DNA of 64,000 nucleotides from the NCBI RefSeq assembly GCF_000091325.1, contig NC_014012.1, positions 3,232,500 through 3,296,499 of the forward strand, given 5' to 3'. Position numbers and translations under genes: made by a program. The stretch comes from Shewanella violacea DSS12 (lineage in GTDB: Bacteria > Pseudomonadota > Gammaproteobacteria > Enterobacterales > Shewanellaceae). Below, piece after piece: positions 20,558 through 57,118 of the stretch. Under the pieces are notes generated by a model. It was not told the DNA's origin, did not search any database, and saw nothing but the letters and a program-made list of their open reading frames with translations. Numbering within the stretch: the first letter of the stretch is position 1; every line of letters begins with the position of its first letter.

Positions 20558-23500
20558 TTAATCTAAGGAATTGACTAAACCGTCAGCTTCGTCCTTCTGC
20601 CTGTCATTACCATCAAGCTGCACTTCTTTAAGCAAGACTTTAGCACTGTCGTTATCGTCTATCTCAATATAGGCTCTAGCAAGATCTAACTTGGCATTGA
20701 TAGAATTCTCTTCATCATCAACATCCACCATGGCAGGGTTACCCATGAGTTTATCTATTTCGCCCATATCGACATCGAGCTCTTTATATTGATCTATGTC
20801 CGTTACATCTTCCTCGGCCTCATTGAGTAGGCGATCGATATCGATGAAACCATTGTCCTTCTGGAAGCTAGTTAGATCGTGCTCAGCAACAGCTACCGCA
20901 GGAGACTTAGACAAGTCTTCAGCATCCAGAGCGGCTAGTGCCTCATCGACGGTCAGATTGCCTTCACCTTCCAGGCTCAAAGACATTTCGCTATGGCCAG
21001 ATTGCTCCTTAACATCCAATAATGAGCTTAGCAGCTCTTCATTATTCGCGGGGGCGATAACAGGCTCTTCGACATTGGCACTCGGTTCCCAATCTAGACT
21101 AGTATCATCGATCTTCTTAGCGCCTTTGAGATCGGCAAACATGCCACCGCCAGGTTTACTTGCCACAGGGTCTTTGGCAGATTTAGGATCGACAGCTTCT
21201 AGATCGGCTAACAATGAGTCCAGAGCATCATCACTACTAGGCTCACGTTCAGGACTAGGCTCTGTAGCCGGAGCTAGCAGGCTATCGTCCAGAACTTCTG
21301 GTTTATCAAGCTGGTCGGCAATATCAAATTCGGCGAGTAATGAATCGAGATCATCTTCACTATCACCAATGTTAGTGTCGATGTCAGCCTCAAGTTCGGC
21401 TGATATTTCATCGGTCAAATCAGCATCAGGCTCGGCAGCGATTGCAGCACTATTTTCATCGAAGCCCGCTAACAGCGCATCGAGATCTGCTTCATCGGCA
21501 TCCGCAGTCGTGTCAACGTCTCCTTCGAGTTCGGCCGAAATTTCATCGATCAAATCAGCATCAGACTCGGCAGCGGTTCCAGCAGGATCTTCCTCTACTG
21601 GCTTATCTTCTCGCTCAGTATCTTCTAGCTCAATAGCTGCTACTTCGGTGTTTTCTAGGGAATAGTCTTCAGCAGGTGCAGCACTGTTTTCATCGAAGCC
21701 CGCTAACAGCGCATCGAGATCTGCTTCATCGGCATCCGCACTAGTGTCTACTTCTCCTTCGAGCTCGGCCGAAATGGCATCAGTCAAATCAGTATCAAAC
21801 TCGGCAGCTGGTGCAGCACTGTTTTCATCGAAGCCTGCTAACAGCGCATCGAGATCTGCTTCATCGGCATCCGCACTTGTGTCGACTTCTCCTTCGAGCT
21901 CAGCTGAAATAGCATCAGTCAAATCAGTATCAAGCTCGGCAGCAGTTTCAGCAGGAGCTTCTTCTACTGGCGTTGCTTCTACCTCAGTAACTTCTAGCTC
22001 AGTAACTTCTAGCTCAGTGTCATCTTCCGCTGTGGCTGACACATCAGGCTTTTCATCAAATTCTGCGAGTAAAGCATCGAGATCTGCTGCATCGGCATCC
22101 GCACTTGTGTCTACTTCTCCTTCGAGCTCGGCTGAAATAGCCTCGCTAAGGTCCGCATCTTCAACAGGCGTCTCGGTGCTGGTATCTTCTTCTGAATGTT
22201 CAAACCCCGCCAGCAAAGCATCTACATCTTCTTCGCTGTCTTTTTCTACACCGAGTTTTTCAATATTGGCTGCATCGAGTGCATCGTCCTCGGCCGTCGG
22301 TGTAATATCTTGCTCTAATTCTGCCGCTATTTCTTCAGAAAGACTCCCTGAGACATCATCTTCGGAAGCTAGGTCTGTTTGGGCTTCACTTTCGCTTTCT
22401 ATTTCAGTGTCAGCCTGAATGCTTGATGTATCGGCAGGCTCGTCAAAACCTGCTAATAGCGAATCTAGGTCATCTTCTGCGACACCGTCACTTTCAGTCT
22501 CAGACTCTGCCTGAGTGCTTGATGTATCGGCTGGCTCATCAAAACCCGCTAATAGCGAATCTAGGTCATCTTCTGCGACACCGTCACTTTCGCTTTCGAT
22601 TTCACTTGCAGTCTCTGTCTCTGCCTGAGTGCTTGATGCATCGGCTGGCTCATCAAAACCCTCTAATAGCGAATCTAGATCATCTTCTGACACTATTTCG
22701 CTGCTTGGATCAGCAGCACTACTCGCTTCAATACTCGCTTCAATACTCTCTGCTACTAAAGCCTCTTCAACAGGGCTTAGTTCGATAGAGGCCTCTTCAG
22801 CAGGCGCTTCATCCTTGGCGGGCTCCTCATCGAAACCAGCTAACAGAGAATCTAAATCGTCTTCACCCGCTTTAGCTTCCTCTTCATCTTGCTCTCCCAT
22901 CGCCTCGGCCCAAAGGTCATCCAAAGACTGGCCTTCCTCTTCGGCAGGCTCCTCAGTCGCTGTTTCACCCGGGTCAACAAACATATCCCCAGCCAGATCT
23001 TGTTCATCACTACTCATATCCACTTCCGGCTGTAATTCAGCCGTATCTATGTTCATGAGTGAGTCGATGGAATCATCATCCTCAGTGTCTAGATGCACTG
23101 CCATGGCTTCAAGATCATGACTTTCCGAACCCAGTGCTTCAGCACCTGTATCTGCATCGGTTTCTGCAGTTATTGGCGATTCAGTTTCCTTCGTCGTTTT
23201 CTCTTCAGTACTTGCTGCGCCTTCATCCCTGCGACGTCTCAAGAATAACCACAAGATGAGCAATAGCAGTAATGCAGGTATCGAGATAGCCGCTATTAGC
23301 ATCAGAGGGTTGCTCATCAGGTTACGCCACTGTTCAGGATCGGCTTCAGGCTCTACGATTTGCAGGGCATTGATCTGCTCCTGCAAGGAGTTTACTTCTT
23401 CGCCGAGTCCGGCACCTTGCAGCTTACTGGCTAGAAGCTGTTCTTCTAAAATTGCAACCTGCTCCTTGAGCTCGTCAATCTTATTCTTCAATGTGCCTGT

Positions 23501-28370: not shown

Positions 28371-28406
28371 CTGGTTAGCACAACATTGCTGGTTAGCACA
28401 ACATTG
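28371..28406 (+). repeat. Two tandem 18-bp units at the left edge of the RAYT array
   Basis: CTGGTTAGCACAACATTG occurs twice back to back (28371..28388, 28389..28406). The second leads directly into the GCCACCCAT end of R1. The AACATTG before each R copy looks like element end or target sequence left by repeated insertions. Confidence 0.8.
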
Positions 28407-28553
28407 CCACCCATTTTTATGAGCCAAAACTCCAAGCTAGACATATTCCAAGTTACGAGGGTTTAAGCACAGCATATTGTCTGCACAATAAGCATAAATG
28501 AGAGCTAAGTGACTATAAAAATCTAAAGTATCTTCTTTTATCTACTTTTAAAC
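28404..28553 (+). repeat. R repeat, copy R1
   Basis: About 150 bp starting TTGCCACCCATTTTTATGAG and ending ATCTACTTTTAAACC. It contains an internal hairpin TATTGT-CTGC-ACAATA. It is highly similar to R2 and R3 and matches the region downstream of the RAYT gene; it is therefore a solo element end without the transposase tail. Confidence 0.88.
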
Positions 28554-28564
28554 CTAACACAACA

Positions 28565-28715
28565 TTGCCACCCATTTTTATGAGCCAAAACTCGAAGCTA
28601 GACATATTCCAAGTTACTAGGGTTTAAGCACAGCATATTGTCCGCACAATAAGCTTAAATGAGAGCTAAGTGACTATAAAAACCTAAAGTATCTTCTTTT
28701 ATCTACTTTTAAACC
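28565..28715 (+). repeat. R repeat, copy R2
   Basis: Near-identical to R1, with GTTACTAGGG for GTTACGAGGG and TGTCCGC for TGTCTGC (one base of the internal hairpin loop). Unlike R1, it continues into a copy of the RAYT gene 3' end (28714..28878). Confidence 0.88.
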
Positions 28716-28878
28716 AACAAAAACGCCGAACATAAGTTCGGTTAAGTATTTTATTTTGAAGCCTGTACTCTTCTTAGGCGAAATGGTTCTCGACTAGGCA
28801 GTATCTAGCCATCGATGGCAATTAGCAGCGCCTTGCCTGCGTTTACGCTCTAGATGTTCACAGTAAGCATCTAACTCC
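28714..28878 (-). pseudogene. Partial duplicate of the RAYT gene 3' end
   Basis: These 165 bp duplicate 29060..29224: a hairpin CCGAAC-ATAA-GTTCGG and the last 28 codons of the transposase (ending RRQGAANCHRWLDTA). The copy breaks off at CTAACTCC, where the next R copy begins. It is the stump of an element whose 5' part was replaced by the insertion of the intact element. Confidence 0.88.
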
Positions 28879-48546: not shown

Positions 48547-51336
48547 TTGTCAGAATCCTTGCAAATAATTAAAAGTCCAAATGATCTCCGTCGATATCAG
48601 CATCTAGTTCTCGACAATGGTCTTTCCGTACTCTTGGTTGAAGATATGGAAGCGAGTCAAGCCGCTGCATCTATGGTGGTCAATGTGGGTCACTTCGATG
48701 ATCCCGTTGAGCGACCAGGTATGGCGCATTTTCTCGAACATATGCTTTTCTTAGGTACAGAGAAATTCCCCGACTCAGGCGAGTATCACGCATTTATCAA
48801 TCAACACGGCGGTAACAATAACGCTTGGACAGGCACAGAGCACACGAATTACTTTTTCAGCATTGATGCCGATGTTTTCGAGGATTCGTTAGATCGATTC
48901 AGCCAATTTTTTATCGCGCCTTTATTTAATGAAGACCTCGTCGATCGTGAGCGACATGCCATCGAATCTGAATTTAGCTTAAAGCTTAAAGATGACATTC
49001 GTAGAACCTATCAAGTGCAAAAAGAGACAGTCAATCCAGAGCATCCGTTCTCGAAGTTTTCTGTGGGTAATTTAACCACACTTTGCGGCGAAGTCTCTCT
49101 CCTGAGAGAGGAGCTAGTCGAGTTTTATCGCAGCCATTACAGTGCGAATATTATGACTCTGTGCCTGGTTGGTCCCAGACCGCTCGATGAACTTGAATTA
49201 CTGGCAGAGCAATATTTCAGCAAAGTAAACAATCACCAACTTGAAAAGCACTATCCAGCCGTACCTATTTATCAGCAAGAGCAACTTAGATCCCAGCTGC
49301 ATATCATCCCGCTCAAAGAACAGAAGCGGGTGGCGATCACGTTCAGCTTACCGGCCATAGATCCTTTCTATAAACACAAGCCACTGACCTTTATCAGCCA
49401 TTTACTGGGTTACGAAGGTAATGGCAGCCTGCTTTCCTATCTGAAAGATCAAGGGTTGGCAGTCAATCTATCGGCTGGCGGAGGAGTAAACGGCTATAAT
49501 TTTAAAGATTACAACATCAGTATTCAGCTAACGGAGAAAGGACTCACTCACCTGGATACTGTCATTCGCTGCGCTTTTGAATATATCGAACTGATTAAAA
49601 CCCAAGGTTTAGAAGACTGGCGCTATCAAGAGCGGGCCAACCTGCTCCATCTGGCATTTAGGTATCAAGAGCAGATAAGAACATTAGATCTGGCCAGCCA
49701 CCTCAGCATCAATATGCATCACTATGATGTGGAAGATTTGGTTTATGGTGATTATAAGATGGACAGCCTTAACGTTAGCGAAACCTTAGGCTTGCTACAA
49801 CTGATGACGCCATCAAATATGCGCATCCAAGTCATAGCACCTGAATTAGATACCGAGCGCCAAGCCGCCTGGTACCACACGCCGTATCAGATACAGTCCA
49901 TTGCAGATGAGAGACTCAAGTCCTGGAGTCATGTTCAGATCCGTCCTGAGCTCAAGCTACCCATCACCAATCCATTTATCATTTCGGACTCAATACCCCG
50001 CCCTGAAAAGAGTAAGAATAAGACCCCAGTTATTGTTTCACAAGATGAAGGTTATCGGATCTGGCACCGTAAAGATGATGAGTTTAATGTCCCTAAGGGG
50101 CATATGTACCTCTCTCTTGATTCAGAACATGCCACATCCTCCCCCAGAAATGCCGCATTAACTCGGCTTTACGTTGAGATGTTACTCGACTATCTGGTTG
50201 AATATACTTATCAAGCCGAAGTCGCAGGGCTAAGCTATAATATCTATCCTCACCAAGGCGGTATCACCTTACATCTGACAGGTTTTACCGGTAAACAGGA
50301 AGTCCTGTTATCACTATTAATCGAGAAAGCCAGAGAACGAAATTTTACTCAAAAGCGATTTGATTCAATCAAACGTCAGATTTTAAGAAATTGGTATAAC
50401 CAAGCCAGATCTAAACCAATCTCACAGATCTTCACCAGTTTAACGGTGACACTTCAAAAACGCAGCTATGAACCATCACGCATGGCAGAGGAATTAGAGG
50501 AGATAACCTTAGAAGATCTACATGATCACGTCATAAAATTCTATGAGAAGATCCACCTTGAAGGCTTAGTTTATGGCGATTGGCTAGTCGAAGAAGTTAA
50601 GGCATTAGGTAATCGATTAAATCATATCCTCTCCTTGGTTTCATCACCCAGTGAAGAGTCGGCTCGTGAGCTAGTTAACCTTTCCGGTAAAGGCACTGTA
50701 CTGCGTGAAATAACCGCCTCTCACCAAGACAGCAGCATAATCATATACTACCAAGCATCTCAATCGAATCCTGAAACTATGGCCTTGTTCAGTTTATTGA
50801 ACCACACCATGTCTTCGACTTTCTTTCACGAACTCAGAACCAAGAGACAACTGGGCTATATGGTAGGCACGGGTTACTTACCACTGAATCGCTATCCTGG
50901 GATCATATTTTATGTGCAGTCACCAACATCCAGTCCTCTACAGCTCTTAGAAGCCATTGACGAGTTTATTGCCGACTTTAACTATGCTGTTATGCAGATC
51001 ACTAATCAGCAATGGGAGCTCACTAAGCAGGGGCTTATCAATCAAGTGATGGAACACGATGCCAATCTAAAAACACGAGGCCAACGTTATTGGTCTAGCA
51101 TTGGCAATAAGGATTATGATTTTAATCAGCGAGAGTTAGTCGTGAAAGAGATTGAGAAGCTGACTCGCGCCGATGTGATTAAGTTTATGATGCAGAGAAT
51201 GCGTAATAAGCTCTGTGACCGATTAGTGCTGTTCACCACAGGCGATAATCATAGGCATGAAGAGCGTCTAAGCTCAGACAATATGATCACTGATTTGCGC
51301 AGTTTTAAGCTACAAGCCAATAAATTCAGCTACTAA
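48547..51336 (+). CDS. Insulinase/pitrilysin-family (M16) zinc protease
   Basis: 929 residues, the length of a full two-halved M16A protease. The inverted zinc motif HFLEH is in RPGMAHFLEHMLFLGTEKFP (about residue 62) with the third ligand Glu in RHAIESEFSLKLKDDIRR. Further on are NNNAWTGTEHTNYFF and, in the C-terminal half, TFFHELRTKRQLGYMVGTGY. There is no signal peptide, unlike E. coli pitrilysin, so it is probably cytoplasmic, degrading peptides of a few kDa. The start is TTG at 48547 with GGAG eight bases ahead. Confidence 0.92.
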   Translation: MSESLQIIKSPNDLRRYQHLVLDNGLSVLLVEDMEASQAAASMVVNVGHFDDPVERPGMAHFLEHMLFLGTEKFPDSGEYHAFINQHGGNNNAWTGTEHTNYFFSIDADVFEDSLDRFSQFFIAPLFNEDLVDRERHAIESEFSLKLKDDIRRTYQVQKETVNPEHPFSKFSVGNLTTLCGEVSLLREELVEFYRSHYSANIMTLCLVGPRPLDELELLAEQYFSKVNNHQLEKHYPAVPIYQQEQLRSQLHIIPLKEQKRVAITFSLPAIDPFYKHKPLTFISHLLGYEGNGSLLSYLKDQGLAVNLSAGGGVNGYNFKDYNISIQLTEKGLTHLDTVIRCAFEYIELIKTQGLEDWRYQERANLLHLAFRYQEQIRTLDLASHLSINMHHYDVEDLVYGDYKMDSLNVSETLGLLQLMTPSNMRIQVIAPELDTERQAAWYHTPYQIQSIADERLKSWSHVQIRPELKLPITNPFIISDSIPRPEKSKNKTPVIVSQDEGYRIWHRKDDEFNVPKGHMYLSLDSEHATSSPRNAALTRLYVEMLLDYLVEYTYQAEVAGLSYNIYPHQGGITLHLTGFTGKQEVLLSLLIEKARERNFTQKRFDSIKRQILRNWYNQARSKPISQIFTSLTVTLQKRSYEPSRMAEELEEITLEDLHDHVIKFYEKIHLEGLVYGDWLVEEVKALGNRLNHILSLVSSPSEESARELVNLSGKGTVLREITASHQDSSIIIYYQASQSNPETMALFSLLNHTMSSTFFHELRTKRQLGYMVGTGYLPLNRYPGIIFYVQSPTSSPLQLLEAIDEFIADFNYAVMQITNQQWELTKQGLINQVMEHDANLKTRGQRYWSSIGNKDYDFNQRELVVKEIEKLTRADVIKFMMQRMRNKLCDRLVLFTTGDNHRHEERLSSDNMITDLRSFKLQANKFSY

Positions 51337-51828: not shown

Positions 51829-54800
51829 ATGATGCCTAACACGGTTATGAAAACAATCTCTACTCTCCTACTGGCCCTCTGTCTTTTCGGCCAGGCGCAA
51901 GCTGTTGAAGAAAAATCTGAACAATCTCCGACTAAGCAGCAGACTTCGTTTTTACTTAACTCCAGCACTTATAATGTCCCAGAAGGACTCTCACAGAGTA
52001 ATATTACTTCTATAGCTGAAGACAATGATAATTATGTTTGGATCGGCACAGTTAACGGCTTAAACAAATTTGATGGTAAAGTTTTCAAACACTACTATGC
52101 TAACAGTAATCAGGGGTTACCAAGCTCTTTTATACGCAGCATACTCTTTGATAAAACTAACAGGCTTCTTGTCGGTACAGATAACGGATTAGCTGTTTAT
52201 GATAAATTAAAAGATAAGTTTTTCTCAATAACCTCTAAAGAGCTTGGTCATTCAAAAAGGATTTGGTCACTTTCTGAGTTTAAAAGCGGTATTTTAATAG
52301 GTACTGAAAACGAAGTATACATCACTGACTTTGATCTAAATGTAAAGAGAAAATACCACGGAAAATTTAACGGAGTGAAACAAAGCGTTTACTTTAACGG
52401 TCACATTTATCTGAGGACATACTCAGGTAAAATATTTAAAATAACAAAAAATAATAAAATAACAAATATAATTGAAAATGCAAATGATTTGAAAATAATA
52501 AATGAAAGGTTACTTGTTTTAACTAAAGATGGAATTATTGATATATCTAAAGACAATAATAAAAATATCAATATAAACGACTTTAGTCACATAACAAAAA
52601 ACAATAGTGATATTTTCGCTGTAAAATCTAATTACATTTACAAAATAGATAAAGACATCAACAATATACTCATTGGCCATTTTAATAGTAACGGAATAAC
52701 TGCATCCCCTAATATAATTTACAGAGGAAAAAACTCAACTTATTTGACCGACCAATCTTTAGGGCTAATAGTTATAAATGACGACAATAATTTAATATCA
52801 TCCCTTGATATAACAAGAAATAATGTATGGTCTATTAGCCATGTAAACAGCAACGTCCTAATTGCGACTGATGAAAAAGATCTTTCTTTATATGGTGATG
52901 ATCTTAATCTAATTATGACATATGCAACTGAATTTTATGGTCCAAAATCTGCAGTAATGATTAATAATGATATATTTATAGCTACTACAGAGGGAGTAAT
53001 ATCTATAGATACAGAATCAGGAAAAACCATTACAATTGATAATGACTCATCATTTGTATTAATCAAAGACCTTAGATCAAATAGCATTATTTCAGGAACT
53101 TCTAGTGGTTACATTTTAGAATACAACTTTATAAATAAATCACTAACAAAAACCAAAATAGACGATGGGAATCCTATATTTGATATAAAAGTACATGAAG
53201 ATTCTATATTTATTGCTACTCAGGGTGGGTTATTCCAACTTAAAGACAATATAGTATCGACATTGTTTAATTCTAAATATGTCGTTAGCTTAGTAGGGTT
53301 AAATGATTATATTTATTTTGGAACAGGTGAAGGAATATTAAGGTATGATTTATCATCAAATGAAATATCATTAATATACAATAACAAAAAACCAATTTTC
53401 GCCTTGTCAGTTAACCGGAACAGCATAATCGCCACTTCGATTAAAGAGGTCATAATTGTCGACACCGAAACCGACGAAGTAACTGTTTTAACCGATGACT
53501 TTGGAAGTCAAGATGAGTACAACGCTCATTCAATATTAACTTTAAACGATAGAACTTTTTTAGGTGGGATAAATGGTATCAGTTATCTTTCCACTAGAAA
53601 AATTAAAGACCATATAAAAAACACCCCACTACCAATTGCTAATTTAGAAGCCCTGTTAATATTCAACATTACTGAAAATGTTGACGGAAAAATATTAACA
53701 AAACAGTTATCGCTAACTGATAACATAAAATTAAAGTATTCAGATTACCCCTTCACACTTAAATTTAATACACCAGGAAATACTTTTGATCAAATAAACT
53801 ATGTATATCAGATGGATGGGCTTTCAGATGCATGGGTTGAATCTAAGGGGTTAAACTCAGCAACATATACCAACTTATCTCCAGGAGAATATAACTTCAC
53901 AGTTTATGCAATTGACCCTCTAACTAAAAATCATGGTAAACATAGAATAATCACAATTGTAATAACTCCTCCTTGGTGGCTCTCTCCACAAGCTAAATTT
54001 ATCTATTTCATGCTTTCACTGATTATTTCGGGCCTGATCGTTAAAGCCATTCTTAGGCGCCGGGAAGTTCAAAACCAGATCGCAAAGTCCGAAGAGCGAC
54101 TCAAGTTGTCACTCTGGGGCAGTGGTGATGAGATGTGGGACTGGGATATTGAAACCGGACAGATATACCGCTCCAATATATGGGGATCTCTTGAATTCCC
54201 TCGGGACGGCCAAAGGTCTGGAGAAGCAGGGGAAAAGAGTAATATACATCCCATGGATCAGGAGCGTGTCAGTACTGCACTTAATGATCACTTCGACGGA
54301 AAATCAGATCACTTCGAAGCCGCCTATCGGGTGAAAGGAAAGTCCGGAGACTGGGTGTGGATTTTAGATAGAGCAAAAATTGTCGAACGAGATGAGAAAG
54401 ATAACCCACTTCGAATGACAGGCACCATCAAAAACATCAACAACTTTAAACATGCCGAAGAGCAGCTGAAATTATTTGAACGAGCTATCGCTAATATTTC
54501 TGAAGGCATGTTTATTCTAGACAGTGGATTTAAATTCGTAGAAGTAAATGAAGCCTGCTGTGAGCTGTGTTTAAAACCCAGAGATAAGTTTATTGGTGAG
54601 CAATTTAACTTCGACCTTTACCCCGACAGCTATTCTGCACAGATCCGTACCATATTGAATCAACAGGGTCGATGGAGTAACGATGTTGAATCTGCTAAGG
54701 GAGATGGTTCCAGCTTCTTGATGGAACTCACTGTCGATGCTATTTATGATGAGCTGGGACAACTCTCTCATTACGTAGGTGTATTCTCAGATATCTCCCG

Positions 54801-56145: not shown

Positions 56146-56296
56146 AATCAACAAAAAAATCGATTACATTTAAGGAAATGATAAAGATGGCATAACAAGT
56201 GCAATTATTCTCTCAAGTGTCAAAAAATAATAATTGGCATACCTACTGACCATGTACCTCACTAACTGATGTACAAAAACTTGAGAGAAGAAGAAT

Positions 56297-56905
56297 ATGA
56301 TTAAAGTATTAGCAACGAGCATTGCCCTAGTATTATCCACTTCAACAATGGCTTTTGAAACTCCTGCGATTGACTCTAATCAAATACTTCTTGCTACTAT
56401 TTCGAATGTTAGCTTAGAGCCTATTGAGCTCGTTGGTATCCAAAATATCAAGTTCAAGCCTATCGAACTCGCTGGTATCCCAAATATCAAGTTCAAGCCT
56501 ATCGAACTCGCTGGTATCCCAAATATCAAGTTCAAGCCTATCGAACTCGCAGGAATCCCAAATATCAAGTTCAAGCCTATCGAACTCGCTGGTATCCCAA
56601 ATATCAAGTTCAAGCCTATTGAACTCGCTGGCATCCCAAATATCAAGTTCAAGCCTATCGAACTCGTTGGTATCCCAAATATCAAGTTCAAGCATATCAA
56701 ACTCGCTGGCATCCCAAATATCAAGTTTAAGCCTATTGAACTCGCTGGCATCCCAAATATCAAGTTTAAGCCTATTGAACTCGCTGGCATCCCAAATATC
56801 AAGTTCAAGCCTATCGAACTCGCTGGTATTCCAAATATCAAGTTCAAGCCTATCGAACTCGCTGGTATCCCAAATATAAGATTCATCAACCAAGAAATGG
56901 CTTAA
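56297..56905 (+). CDS. Secreted protein of twelve 13-residue tandem repeats
   Basis: 202 residues. A typical signal peptide (to about residue 19, TSTMA) and a 20-residue spacer are followed by twelve back-to-back 13-residue units with consensus FKPIELAGIPNIK (residues 40-195) and a seven-residue tail FINQEMA. The first unit is LEPIELVGIQNIK; unit 8 is FKHIKLAGIPNIK; most others are identical. No known family. Each unit has a net charge of about +1 and alternating Ile/Leu, which would suit beta-strand stacking (solenoid or fibre) or processing to short peptides at the K-F-K joints. GAGAGAAGAAG precedes the ATG. It forms an operon with the 39-residue gene 18 bp downstream. Confidence 0.75.
   Translation: MIKVLATSIALVLSTSTMAFETPAIDSNQILLATISNVSLEPIELVGIQNIKFKPIELAGIPNIKFKPIELAGIPNIKFKPIELAGIPNIKFKPIELAGIPNIKFKPIELAGIPNIKFKPIELVGIPNIKFKHIKLAGIPNIKFKPIELAGIPNIKFKPIELAGIPNIKFKPIELAGIPNIKFKPIELAGIPNIRFINQEMA
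56414..56881 (+). repeat. Twelve tandem 39-bp repeats
   Basis: The unit TTCAAGCCTATCGAACTCGC-TGGTATCCCAAATATCAAG (39 bp) is repeated with very few base changes, mostly third-position T/C or GGT/GGC. The period keeps the reading frame. At least one other plus frame and two minus frames also stay open throughout, a by-product of the repetitive unit lacking stops. High identity suggests recent expansion or ongoing homogenisation. Confidence 0.95.
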
Positions 56906-56923
56906 GGTCAGAGGAGAATAATT

Positions 56924-57043
56924 ATGTTCGATTCAATTAAGAAAGCATTAGGCCTAACTCACAAGCCAGCACGTATCAAGGTACAGCTTCCAGAAGGACT
57001 GAACCATTTAGAAGTTATACCAGCCAAAGTGTGGTGGAAGTAG
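56924..57043 (+). CDS. Small basic protein (39 residues) downstream of the repeat protein
   Basis: A 39-residue protein beginning MFDSIKKALGLTHKPARIKV and ending LEVIPAKVWWK, too short for standard gene callers. AGAGGAG is seven bases before the ATG, a strong ribosome site, and a terminator follows 50 bp after the stop, so expression as the second gene of a bicistronic unit is well supported. The N-terminal MFDSIKKALGL is amphipathic; there is no signal peptide. I do not recognise the family. It might be a chaperone or inhibitor of the repeat protein, or itself an active peptide. This is speculation from position. Confidence 0.65.
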   Translation: MFDSIKKALGLTHKPARIKVQLPEGLNHLEVIPAKVWWK

Positions 57044-57093
57044 AATGACCTTGTCCTTGAGCTGATATTCGTTCACTCATGATACAAGTACAG

Positions 57094-57118
57094 AAAAGGA
57101 GCCTAGGGCTCCTTTTTT
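57094..57118 (+). terminator. Terminator of the repeat-protein operon
   Basis: AAAAGGAGCC / GGCTCCTTTT stem with a TAG loop, followed by further T residues. It is 50 bp after the stop of the 39-residue gene. Confidence 0.9.

Follow-up and report, generated by a model that had tools for sequence, protein, structure and literature searches.

A tandem-repeat peptide gene and the hypervariable periplasmic half of an adjacent c-di-GMP sensor tend to change together in Shewanella: a candidate pherotype-like system

Why does a secreted-looking protein made of twelve nearly identical 13-residue units lie directly behind a large cyclic di-GMP (c-di-GMP) sensor gene, and what might such a protein do there? 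The question arises from a 64,000-nucleotide stretch of Shewanella violacea DSS12 (NC_014012.1, positions 3,232,500 to 3,296,499; hereafter the window), in which an earlier note, made from the letters alone, had described a protein with a signal peptide and the twelve units, followed 18 bp on by an open reading frame (ORF) for a 39-residue basic protein and a terminator. This layout was confirmed (Table 1); the N-terminus is signal-like, a short spacer precedes the units, and the 18 bp run from the stop of the repeat ORF to the small ORF. Tandem Repeats Finder assigns the array a period of 39, 12.0 copies, 93% matches, and a score of 787, the highest in the window, with a degenerate first unit (LEPIELVGIQNIK). 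Two terminator-like hairpins were found in the region, where shuffled sequence gave 1.0 on average. Twelve copies that stay in frame with 93% matches are not due to chance, and the gene pair recurs throughout the genus. Here, we report that the repeat unit and the periplasmic domain of the adjacent sensor tend to change together among Shewanella genomes. We propose, with a probability of about 0.68, that the repeat protein serves as a peptide ligand in multiple copies and that the periplasmic domain is the receptor matched to it allele by allele, the two together gating c-di-GMP turnover in a pherotype-like manner.

The repeat protein was present in 109 and the 39-residue protein in 118 of 129 Shewanella genomes, each once in the source genome, and the pair is thus conserved. 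We examined the regions from 100 of the 117 other genomes matching the small protein together with the window, i.e., 101 loci (L numbers below). The small gene is readable as an ORF in all but one of them (L148), and in 93 of these 100 loci a repeat ORF contains two or more P-x-[VI]-[KR] cores. As for the remaining seven, three lie at contig ends (L153, L157, and L158), L077 contains a run of N, L085 and L100 have a P-G-L-K variant core, and the repeat ORF of L114 is only partly visible. The common gene order is an M16 peptidase, the sensor, the repeat gene, the small gene, a 74-residue ORF on the opposite strand, two fatty-acid oxidation genes (fadJ and fadI), and an AAA/MoxR gene, with families assigned by Pfam. 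The repeat protein, the small protein, and the sensor form a genus-wide system at one conserved locus.

The sensor has the features of a Reg_prop/Y_Y_Y periplasmic sensor: Reg_prop propeller repeats and Y_Y_Y, a transmembrane helix, and a cytoplasmic PAS-GGDEF-EAL output. The transmembrane helix and the signal peptide are predictions, assigned by position in the model or by eye. The catalytic motifs are intact in the window (GGDEF at residue 1078, EALVR at 1206) and nearly invariant across loci (89/89 and 88/89, respectively). The AlphaFold2 model of residues 22-748 is mostly β-structure with a terminal helix (predicted local distance difference test score, pLDDT, 91.8; predicted template-modeling score, pTM, 0.86), and its nearest PDB entry is 4a2l, BT4663 (E 5.7e-38, TM-score about 0.75). 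The periplasmic domain of BT4663 is a double propeller. According to this model, the periplasmic fold is kept despite the divergence in sequence.

This divergence is extreme and confined to the periplasmic half. Between the window and three close relatives, residues 151-550 are only 15-36% identical, while residues 751-1400 are 90-100% identical. We denote the periplasmic part as N and the cytoplasmic half as C, and give identities as fractions. For the 87 locus pairs with a fadJ identity of at least 0.95, the median identity is 0.42 for N (residues 90-650) against 0.97 for C (residues 751-1400); N falls below 0.5 in 49 pairs, C below 0.9 in none. In most of eight pairs drawn out along the protein, the variable segment runs from a start somewhere within residues 1-125 to about residues 600-725, downstream of which the identity is mostly 92-100%. 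A Reg_prop/Y_Y_Y-PAS-histidine-kinase paralogue from the same genomes served as a control. It showed medians of 0.89 (N) and 0.93 (C) over 14 pairs, for which the sensor studied here gave 0.36 and 0.99. This paralogue (L189, G000:C1:3672929-3676609) lies elsewhere in the genome and is not hypervariable. General fast evolution of sensor domains, considered as an explanation, is excluded as the sole cause by this one control.

The same split was observed within named species (names as in the sources; seven species, drawn from 120 of 170 proteins). In four of the seven, N is 0.35-0.45 with C at 0.99-1.00: the three sensors from S. insulae (N 0.39-0.43, C 0.998-1.000) and those of S. marisflavi (0.37, 0.998), S. 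woodyi (0.43, 1.000), and S. colwelliana (0.35-0.45, 0.991-0.997).

The repeat unit also varies. The dominant unit length among the 93 loci is 13 residues in 86, 9 in three, 15 in two, 14 in one, and 17 in one, and the number of cores per protein ranges from 3 to 34 with a median of 11. The core follows A-[G/A/x]-x-P-x-[V/I]-[K/R]-[F/V/Y/L], in which the constancy of P-x-[VI]-[KR] in our counts is by construction since this stretch served as the search anchor. In an alignment of 46 repeat proteins (A5), many of the A and P columns likewise stay at or above 90%, and the C-terminal residue is A in 89 of the 93 proteins. Within one protein the units are near-identical, and they differ between species, which agrees with the homogenization previously suggested: the window has AGIPNIKF, and other species have AGAPHVKF, AGHPYVKF, ARVPGVKV, AALPWVKV, or AHNPYIKY. 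The unit of L109 (genome G065), for example, is AGHPYVKFKPFEV, with 11 cores. The repeat ORF of L064 is apparently frame-broken within the array, by an assembly error or by decay. Cleavage at K-F-K joints, as proposed in the earlier note, is not borne out because F-K-P occurs in only 35 of 78 consensus units.

Does the unit vary in step with the sensor? Unit similarity predicts the similarity of N in a partial Mantel test on 78 loci controlling for fadJ and the C half (r 0.24 for the core and 0.25 over the full 13 positions; p 0.001 from 999 permutations). As relatedness inflates tests of this type, we also used 34 disjoint closest pairs. N was at least 0.75 in 4/4 pairs with an identical core and below 0.6 in 27/30 pairs with differing cores (Fisher p 0.0008 at the 0.6 cut). 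The exceptions among the latter are L102/L160 (N 0.97), where both arrays mix like kinds of unit, and L112/L154 and L104/L113 (both 0.69). The partial Spearman coefficient for these pairs is 0.52 (p 0.0014), whereas the core against the C half gave a rho of 0.19 (p 0.28). When fadJ identity is at least 0.95, the median N is 0.73 (n=14) for seven of seven core matches, 0.52 (n=18) for six, 0.37 (n=22) for five, 0.44 (n=13) for four, 0.31 (n=17) for three, and 0.38 (n=3) for two. The largest effect of a single position was found at position 3 of the unit, before P, with a median N of 0.57 upon agreement and 0.36 upon difference (227 pairs). Alleles of the putative ligand and receptor are thus matched statistically, not absolutely.

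Synonymous divergence (dS) was compared in 76 pairs, of which we call close those with dS below 0.6 in both neighbor genes. In all 20 close pairs with differing cores, sensor N has a dS above 1.5, no less than 2.5-fold the dS of the C half, which lies at 0.16-1.07, at most 0.4 of the N part in all 20 and within 1.5 times the larger neighbor dS in 11. None of the five close pairs with identical cores exceeds 1.5 for N. For instance, N is saturated between L067 and L068, which have different cores, with a dS of 0.17 in the C half, 0.30 in the peptidase, and 0.20 in fadJ; the same-core pairs L074/L075 and L097/L106 have N values of 0.14 and 0.29. In ten of eleven hand-picked pairs with differing cores, the EAL end, the intergenic region, the first 45 nucleotides of the repeat ORF, and the small gene are 86-99% identical in nucleotides, and in the eleventh (L095/L109) 73-92%. 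Two variable segments, with about 2.3 kb of far less diverged DNA between them, have thus changed together.

As for expression, the pattern TGGC[AC]N8GC was found between the sensor and the repeat start, or up to 90 nucleotides inside the listed repeat ORF, in 91 of 93 loci, against an expectation of 0.07 per region; a slightly looser pattern occurs in 11 of 13 further loci. Sigma54 promoters have the consensus spacing GG-N10-GC. The conserved element fits this spacing and hints at RpoN control of the peptide gene.

The small protein behaves differently from the unit. Its family consensus is MFxSIKKALGLxKPxRKKVKLPEGLxHLEVIPAKGWWN, with ten invariant columns in an alignment of 30 sequences and a start that is possibly amphipathic as judged by eye, and its sequence remains constant while the repeat unit changes. 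Of the roles suggested earlier, this constancy disfavors both immunity, as a cognate factor, and a second peptide specific to each species; the small protein may aid processing, export, or signaling. Twelve of the 100 loci carry the small gene twice 3' of the array, as diverged tandem copies (L076, L081-L084, L087, L088, L094, L105, L112, L124, and L154).

Eleven Shewanella genomes had no match to the small protein. In four of them (G055, G096, G105, and G110), the peptidase adjoins fadJ, and the region retrieved shows no remnant of sensor, repeat gene, or small gene; the repeat and small proteins were not found elsewhere in these genomes either, the sensor having been sought at the locus only. 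All three genes are thus jointly absent from the locus. Three others (G116, G119, and G121) carry the sensor with a 59-residue exported-looking peptide, which has the core once at its end (QFPIVVF, RIPIVIF, and RFPIVIF, respectively), and the small protein was not found in them. In G112, a repeat protein is accompanied by a small-like ORF that is divergent. The contigs of G092 and G098 stop within 1 kb, and in G115, where the contig ends within 4 kb, no relative was recognized. The small protein has matches in 39 of 394 genomes across the order, 30 of them Shewanella and the other nine from two other families. All nine have a gene of 1425-1511 residues upstream, and the five tested are all Reg_prop-PAS-GGDEF-EAL proteins, two of them with Y_Y_Y. 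Four of the nine carry repeats, with a period of 12 in three, ending exactly in a core (RIPVRF, RVIIRY, HIPIRF, or RIQIRI); in the other five, the peptides have 40-48 residues and no array, and in one of them the motif IEDQVGL occurs twice. A scan of genome contigs yielded, among the matches listed, mostly Bacteroidetes-type sensors.

In line with the earlier statement that the unit has no known family, neither the repeat nor the small protein gave anything convincing in Pfam, NCBIfam, PHROGs, PADLOC, or the PDB. The best PHROG match (E 0.0014) has no known function and no stretch that passes alone. A protein search with alignment A5 returned two partial proteins among the 7998 candidates that share most words with it, from which we draw no conclusion. 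The PADLOC models for anti-phage defense matched none of the three proteins submitted.

Table 1. Features of the locus in the window (positions within the 64,000 nucleotides).
Feature	Position	Strand	Basis
Sensor gene, 1438 aa	51829..56145	+	Pfam: Reg_prop/Y_Y_Y/PAS/GGDEF/EAL; 5' of peptide gene in relatives too
Hypervariable periplasmic sensor segment, about residues 90-700, proposed peptide receptor	52096..53928	+	25-50 residue windows, covariation with unit
Predicted transmembrane helix, about residues 720-747, variable/conserved boundary	53986..54069	+	model helix 699-726; transmembrane by position
Sigma54-like element TGGCATAACAAGTGC (GG-N10-GC), before peptide gene	56188..56202	+	pattern match
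Putative peptide precursor, exported-looking tandem-repeat protein, 202 aa	56297..56905	+	ORF; relatives in 109/129 genomes
Probable Sec signal peptide, residues 1-19	56297..56353	+	judged by eye from MIKVLATSIALVLSTSTMA; signal-like N-termini in relatives, also in single-copy forms
Array, twelve 39-bp units, consensus AGIPNIKFKPIEL	56418..56885	+	Tandem Repeats Finder
Conserved basic protein, 39 aa	56924..57043	+	relatives in 118/129 genomes; alignment of 30
Terminator-like hairpin with T run	57092..57118	+	hairpin scan

The M16-family peptidase (Pfam) lies at 48547-51336 in the window, directly 5' of the sensor, and has a TTG start. A dedicated role in processing the peptide is unlikely for it because the peptidase is kept in genomes whose locus lacks the three genes. 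Elsewhere in the window, there is a direct duplication of 161 bp with 96% matches (28397-28719), and two tandem duplications of 135 bp and 96 bp with 92% and 95% matches lie near each other (21670-21953 and 22413-22591), possibly in one repeat-rich gene.

How might these parts work together? The repeat gene would produce an exported multi-copy peptide ligand with a short core in each unit (A-G-I-P-N-I-K-F in the window), present in 3 to 34 copies or once at the C-terminus in some species. The propeller domain on the periplasmic side of the neighboring sensor would detect the ligand, whole or cut into units, and the many copies could raise dose or avidity. The signal would then cross the membrane via the Y_Y_Y domain and the transmembrane helix, and the conserved PAS-GGDEF-EAL half would shift the balance between synthesis and breakdown of c-di-GMP. 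The peptide and small genes are probably co-transcribed from a sigma54-type promoter. Ligand and receptor would be matched alleles that diverge and are exchanged jointly within and between species. As such matching resembles Gram-positive pherotypes, the likely role would be self- or kin-specific signaling into behavior controlled by c-di-GMP. The ligand of BT4663 is a glycan; for the present sensor, the covariation points to the peptide. We give only even odds to the further step that this is a polymorphic pheromone system of Shewanella and some other families of the order, in which species- or strain-specific peptides released from the tandem-repeat precursor, a matched propeller receptor, and its direct link to c-di-GMP synthesis and breakdown make up a kin-specific language for biofilm and motility.

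Several observations weigh against this proposal. The correspondence between unit and sensor is not strictly monotonic: L066 and L069 differ at one core position and have an N of only 0.41, L112 and L154 keep 0.69 with three core positions different, and the median N does not fall steadily from seven core matches to two. Identical cores are shared by only 4 of the 34 disjoint pairs, and when pairs at any distance are counted, N dS lies above 1.5 in 4 of the 11 with the same core. Within species, polymorphism was seen for the receptor only, and the remaining three species are less striking, with S. fidelis milder (N 0.59), S. mangrovisoli nearly uniform (N 0.86), and S. halifaxensis divergent in C as well (N 0.41, C 0.912). 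No exporter or processing protease was recognized as part of the locus, so release from the periplasm is hypothetical. Export, physical binding, processing, extracellular release, the sign of the c-di-GMP effect, and the role of the small protein are steps that we infer, as is cell-to-cell signaling by the peptide.

The main rival takes up the last point. The repeat protein could remain periplasmic and serve the sensor as a subunit or reporter, its amount or proteolysis signaling the state of the envelope or of growth, so that ligand and receptor co-evolve without a signal between cells. The signal-like N-terminus, the periplasmic sensor, the lack of a recognized exporter, the sigma54-like element, and the same co-switching all accommodate such a non-social partner. 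On its own, however, it leaves unexplained the discrete, highly divergent sensor alleles within named species and the saturated divergence between loci with near-identical neighbors, which point to selection for diversity, and we regard this reading as unlikely, if the most serious of the alternatives. It is less likely again that unit and sensor covary merely as neighbors, without contact, through a recombination hotspot that replaces the region. The two genes are adjacent, the sensor segment resembles an exchanged cassette, and the intervening C half exceeds 1.5 times the larger neighbor dS in 9 of the 20 close pairs with differing cores, up to 1.07; exchange has thus sometimes reached the C half, which weakens the argument against plain linkage and counts against our proposal too. 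Nevertheless, the C half remains near its neighbors in the other 11 pairs and far below N in all 20, the intergenic region and the small gene differ little in the pairs compared, the Reg_prop paralogue elsewhere is not hypervariable, and the three genes are absent together.

A secreted fiber, amyloid, or β-solenoid matrix protein, whose assembly the sensor would read, extends the earlier suggestion of a β-solenoid or surface fiber and would suit the long arrays of some species (34 cores), the homogenized units, and the c-di-GMP neighbor. We rejected it as the leading explanation and consider it very improbable, given unit lengths from 9 to 17 (9, 13, 14, 15, and 17), array-less forms that occupy this locus in three Shewanella and, within another family, in five genomes, the lack of a convincing Pfam, NCBIfam, or PDB match, and an AlphaFold2 model with a pLDDT of 40 and no residue reaching 50, although the last is weak evidence for a repeat protein. 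Marginally less probable still is a bacteriocin-like antimicrobial peptide with the sensor as its inducer and the 39-residue protein as immunity factor. A multi-copy, exported-looking, polymorphic peptide beside a small basic protein whose start is possibly amphipathic would be in keeping with it, but changes in the unit are not mirrored in the small protein, the ground on which we rejected this candidate, and the small protein was not found in the three single-copy Shewanella; neither an exporter in the locus nor a PADLOC match was recognized. The overall reading of the earlier note is partly supported. Support extends to a homogenized unit without a known family, a conserved pair, the idea of a multi-copy peptide precursor, and a link to c-di-GMP, the last more firmly than suggested because the periplasmic domain of the sensor co-diversifies with the unit, but not to the solenoid or fiber or to the K-F-K cleavage.

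The proposed ligand-receptor pair follows the logic of pherotypes, and we found no relation of its parts to any such system. The pherotypes of Bacillus are described as distinct communication groups (PMC4408185), and a second paper addresses what maintains such diversity (PMC6461992). Like ComQXPA (ComX-ComP) and Agr, the locus has adjacent polymorphic peptide and receptor genes, the sensing half of the receptor being variable and the output half conserved, and alleles differ within species, here as seen for the receptor. Agr specificity groups represent a pherotype-like polymorphism of peptide and receptor, and ComP and AgrC likewise combine a variable sensing half with a conserved output half. 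However, no homology to these systems was found, and the locus does not belong to their families: the repeat and small proteins have no convincing Pfam or NCBIfam match, the receptor is a propeller domain fused to GGDEF-EAL instead of a histidine kinase, the ligand is repeated up to 34 times in one precursor, and the host is Gram-negative. No ComQ-like modifying enzyme was recognized; for a ribosomally synthesized and post-translationally modified peptide, a modifying enzyme was sought with Pfam among the conserved neighbors only, and none was found there. The Bacteroides Reg_prop/Y_Y_Y hybrid sensors BT4663 (4a2l) and BT3049 (3v9f) share the periplasmic fold, and their PDB titles name heparin/heparan sulphate sensing or a putative hybrid two-component system, whereas here the output is GGDEF-EAL and the sensing domain is hypervariable in step with a neighboring peptide. 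Fungal α-factor type precursors are likewise exported with tandem near-identical copies of a short species-specific peptide, but the present protein is bacterial, any processing sites in it are hypothetical, and we know of no sequence relation. Curli and other repeat-built secreted fibers resemble it as exported repeat proteins near a c-di-GMP gene but differ in their unit; the locus shows a variable unit length, single-copy forms, no confident fold, and no sequence match to them. Literature searches, which left most subscription papers and preprints uncovered, returned among the matches listed no description of the locus, the peptides, or their function. SO3084, named in one paper among unexplained transposon insertions, may be this sensor.

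If our proposal is true, the locus would be a non-homologous counterpart of the Gram-positive pherotypes with its output directly into c-di-GMP, found in a genus that includes the model organism S. oneidensis, and would show how Gram-negative bacteria can recognize kin by peptide. It would also supply a ligand for the widespread Reg_prop/Y_Y_Y sensor architecture, for which, to our knowledge, the ligands are mostly unknown, as well as many natural ligand-receptor pairs for studying the evolution of specificity.
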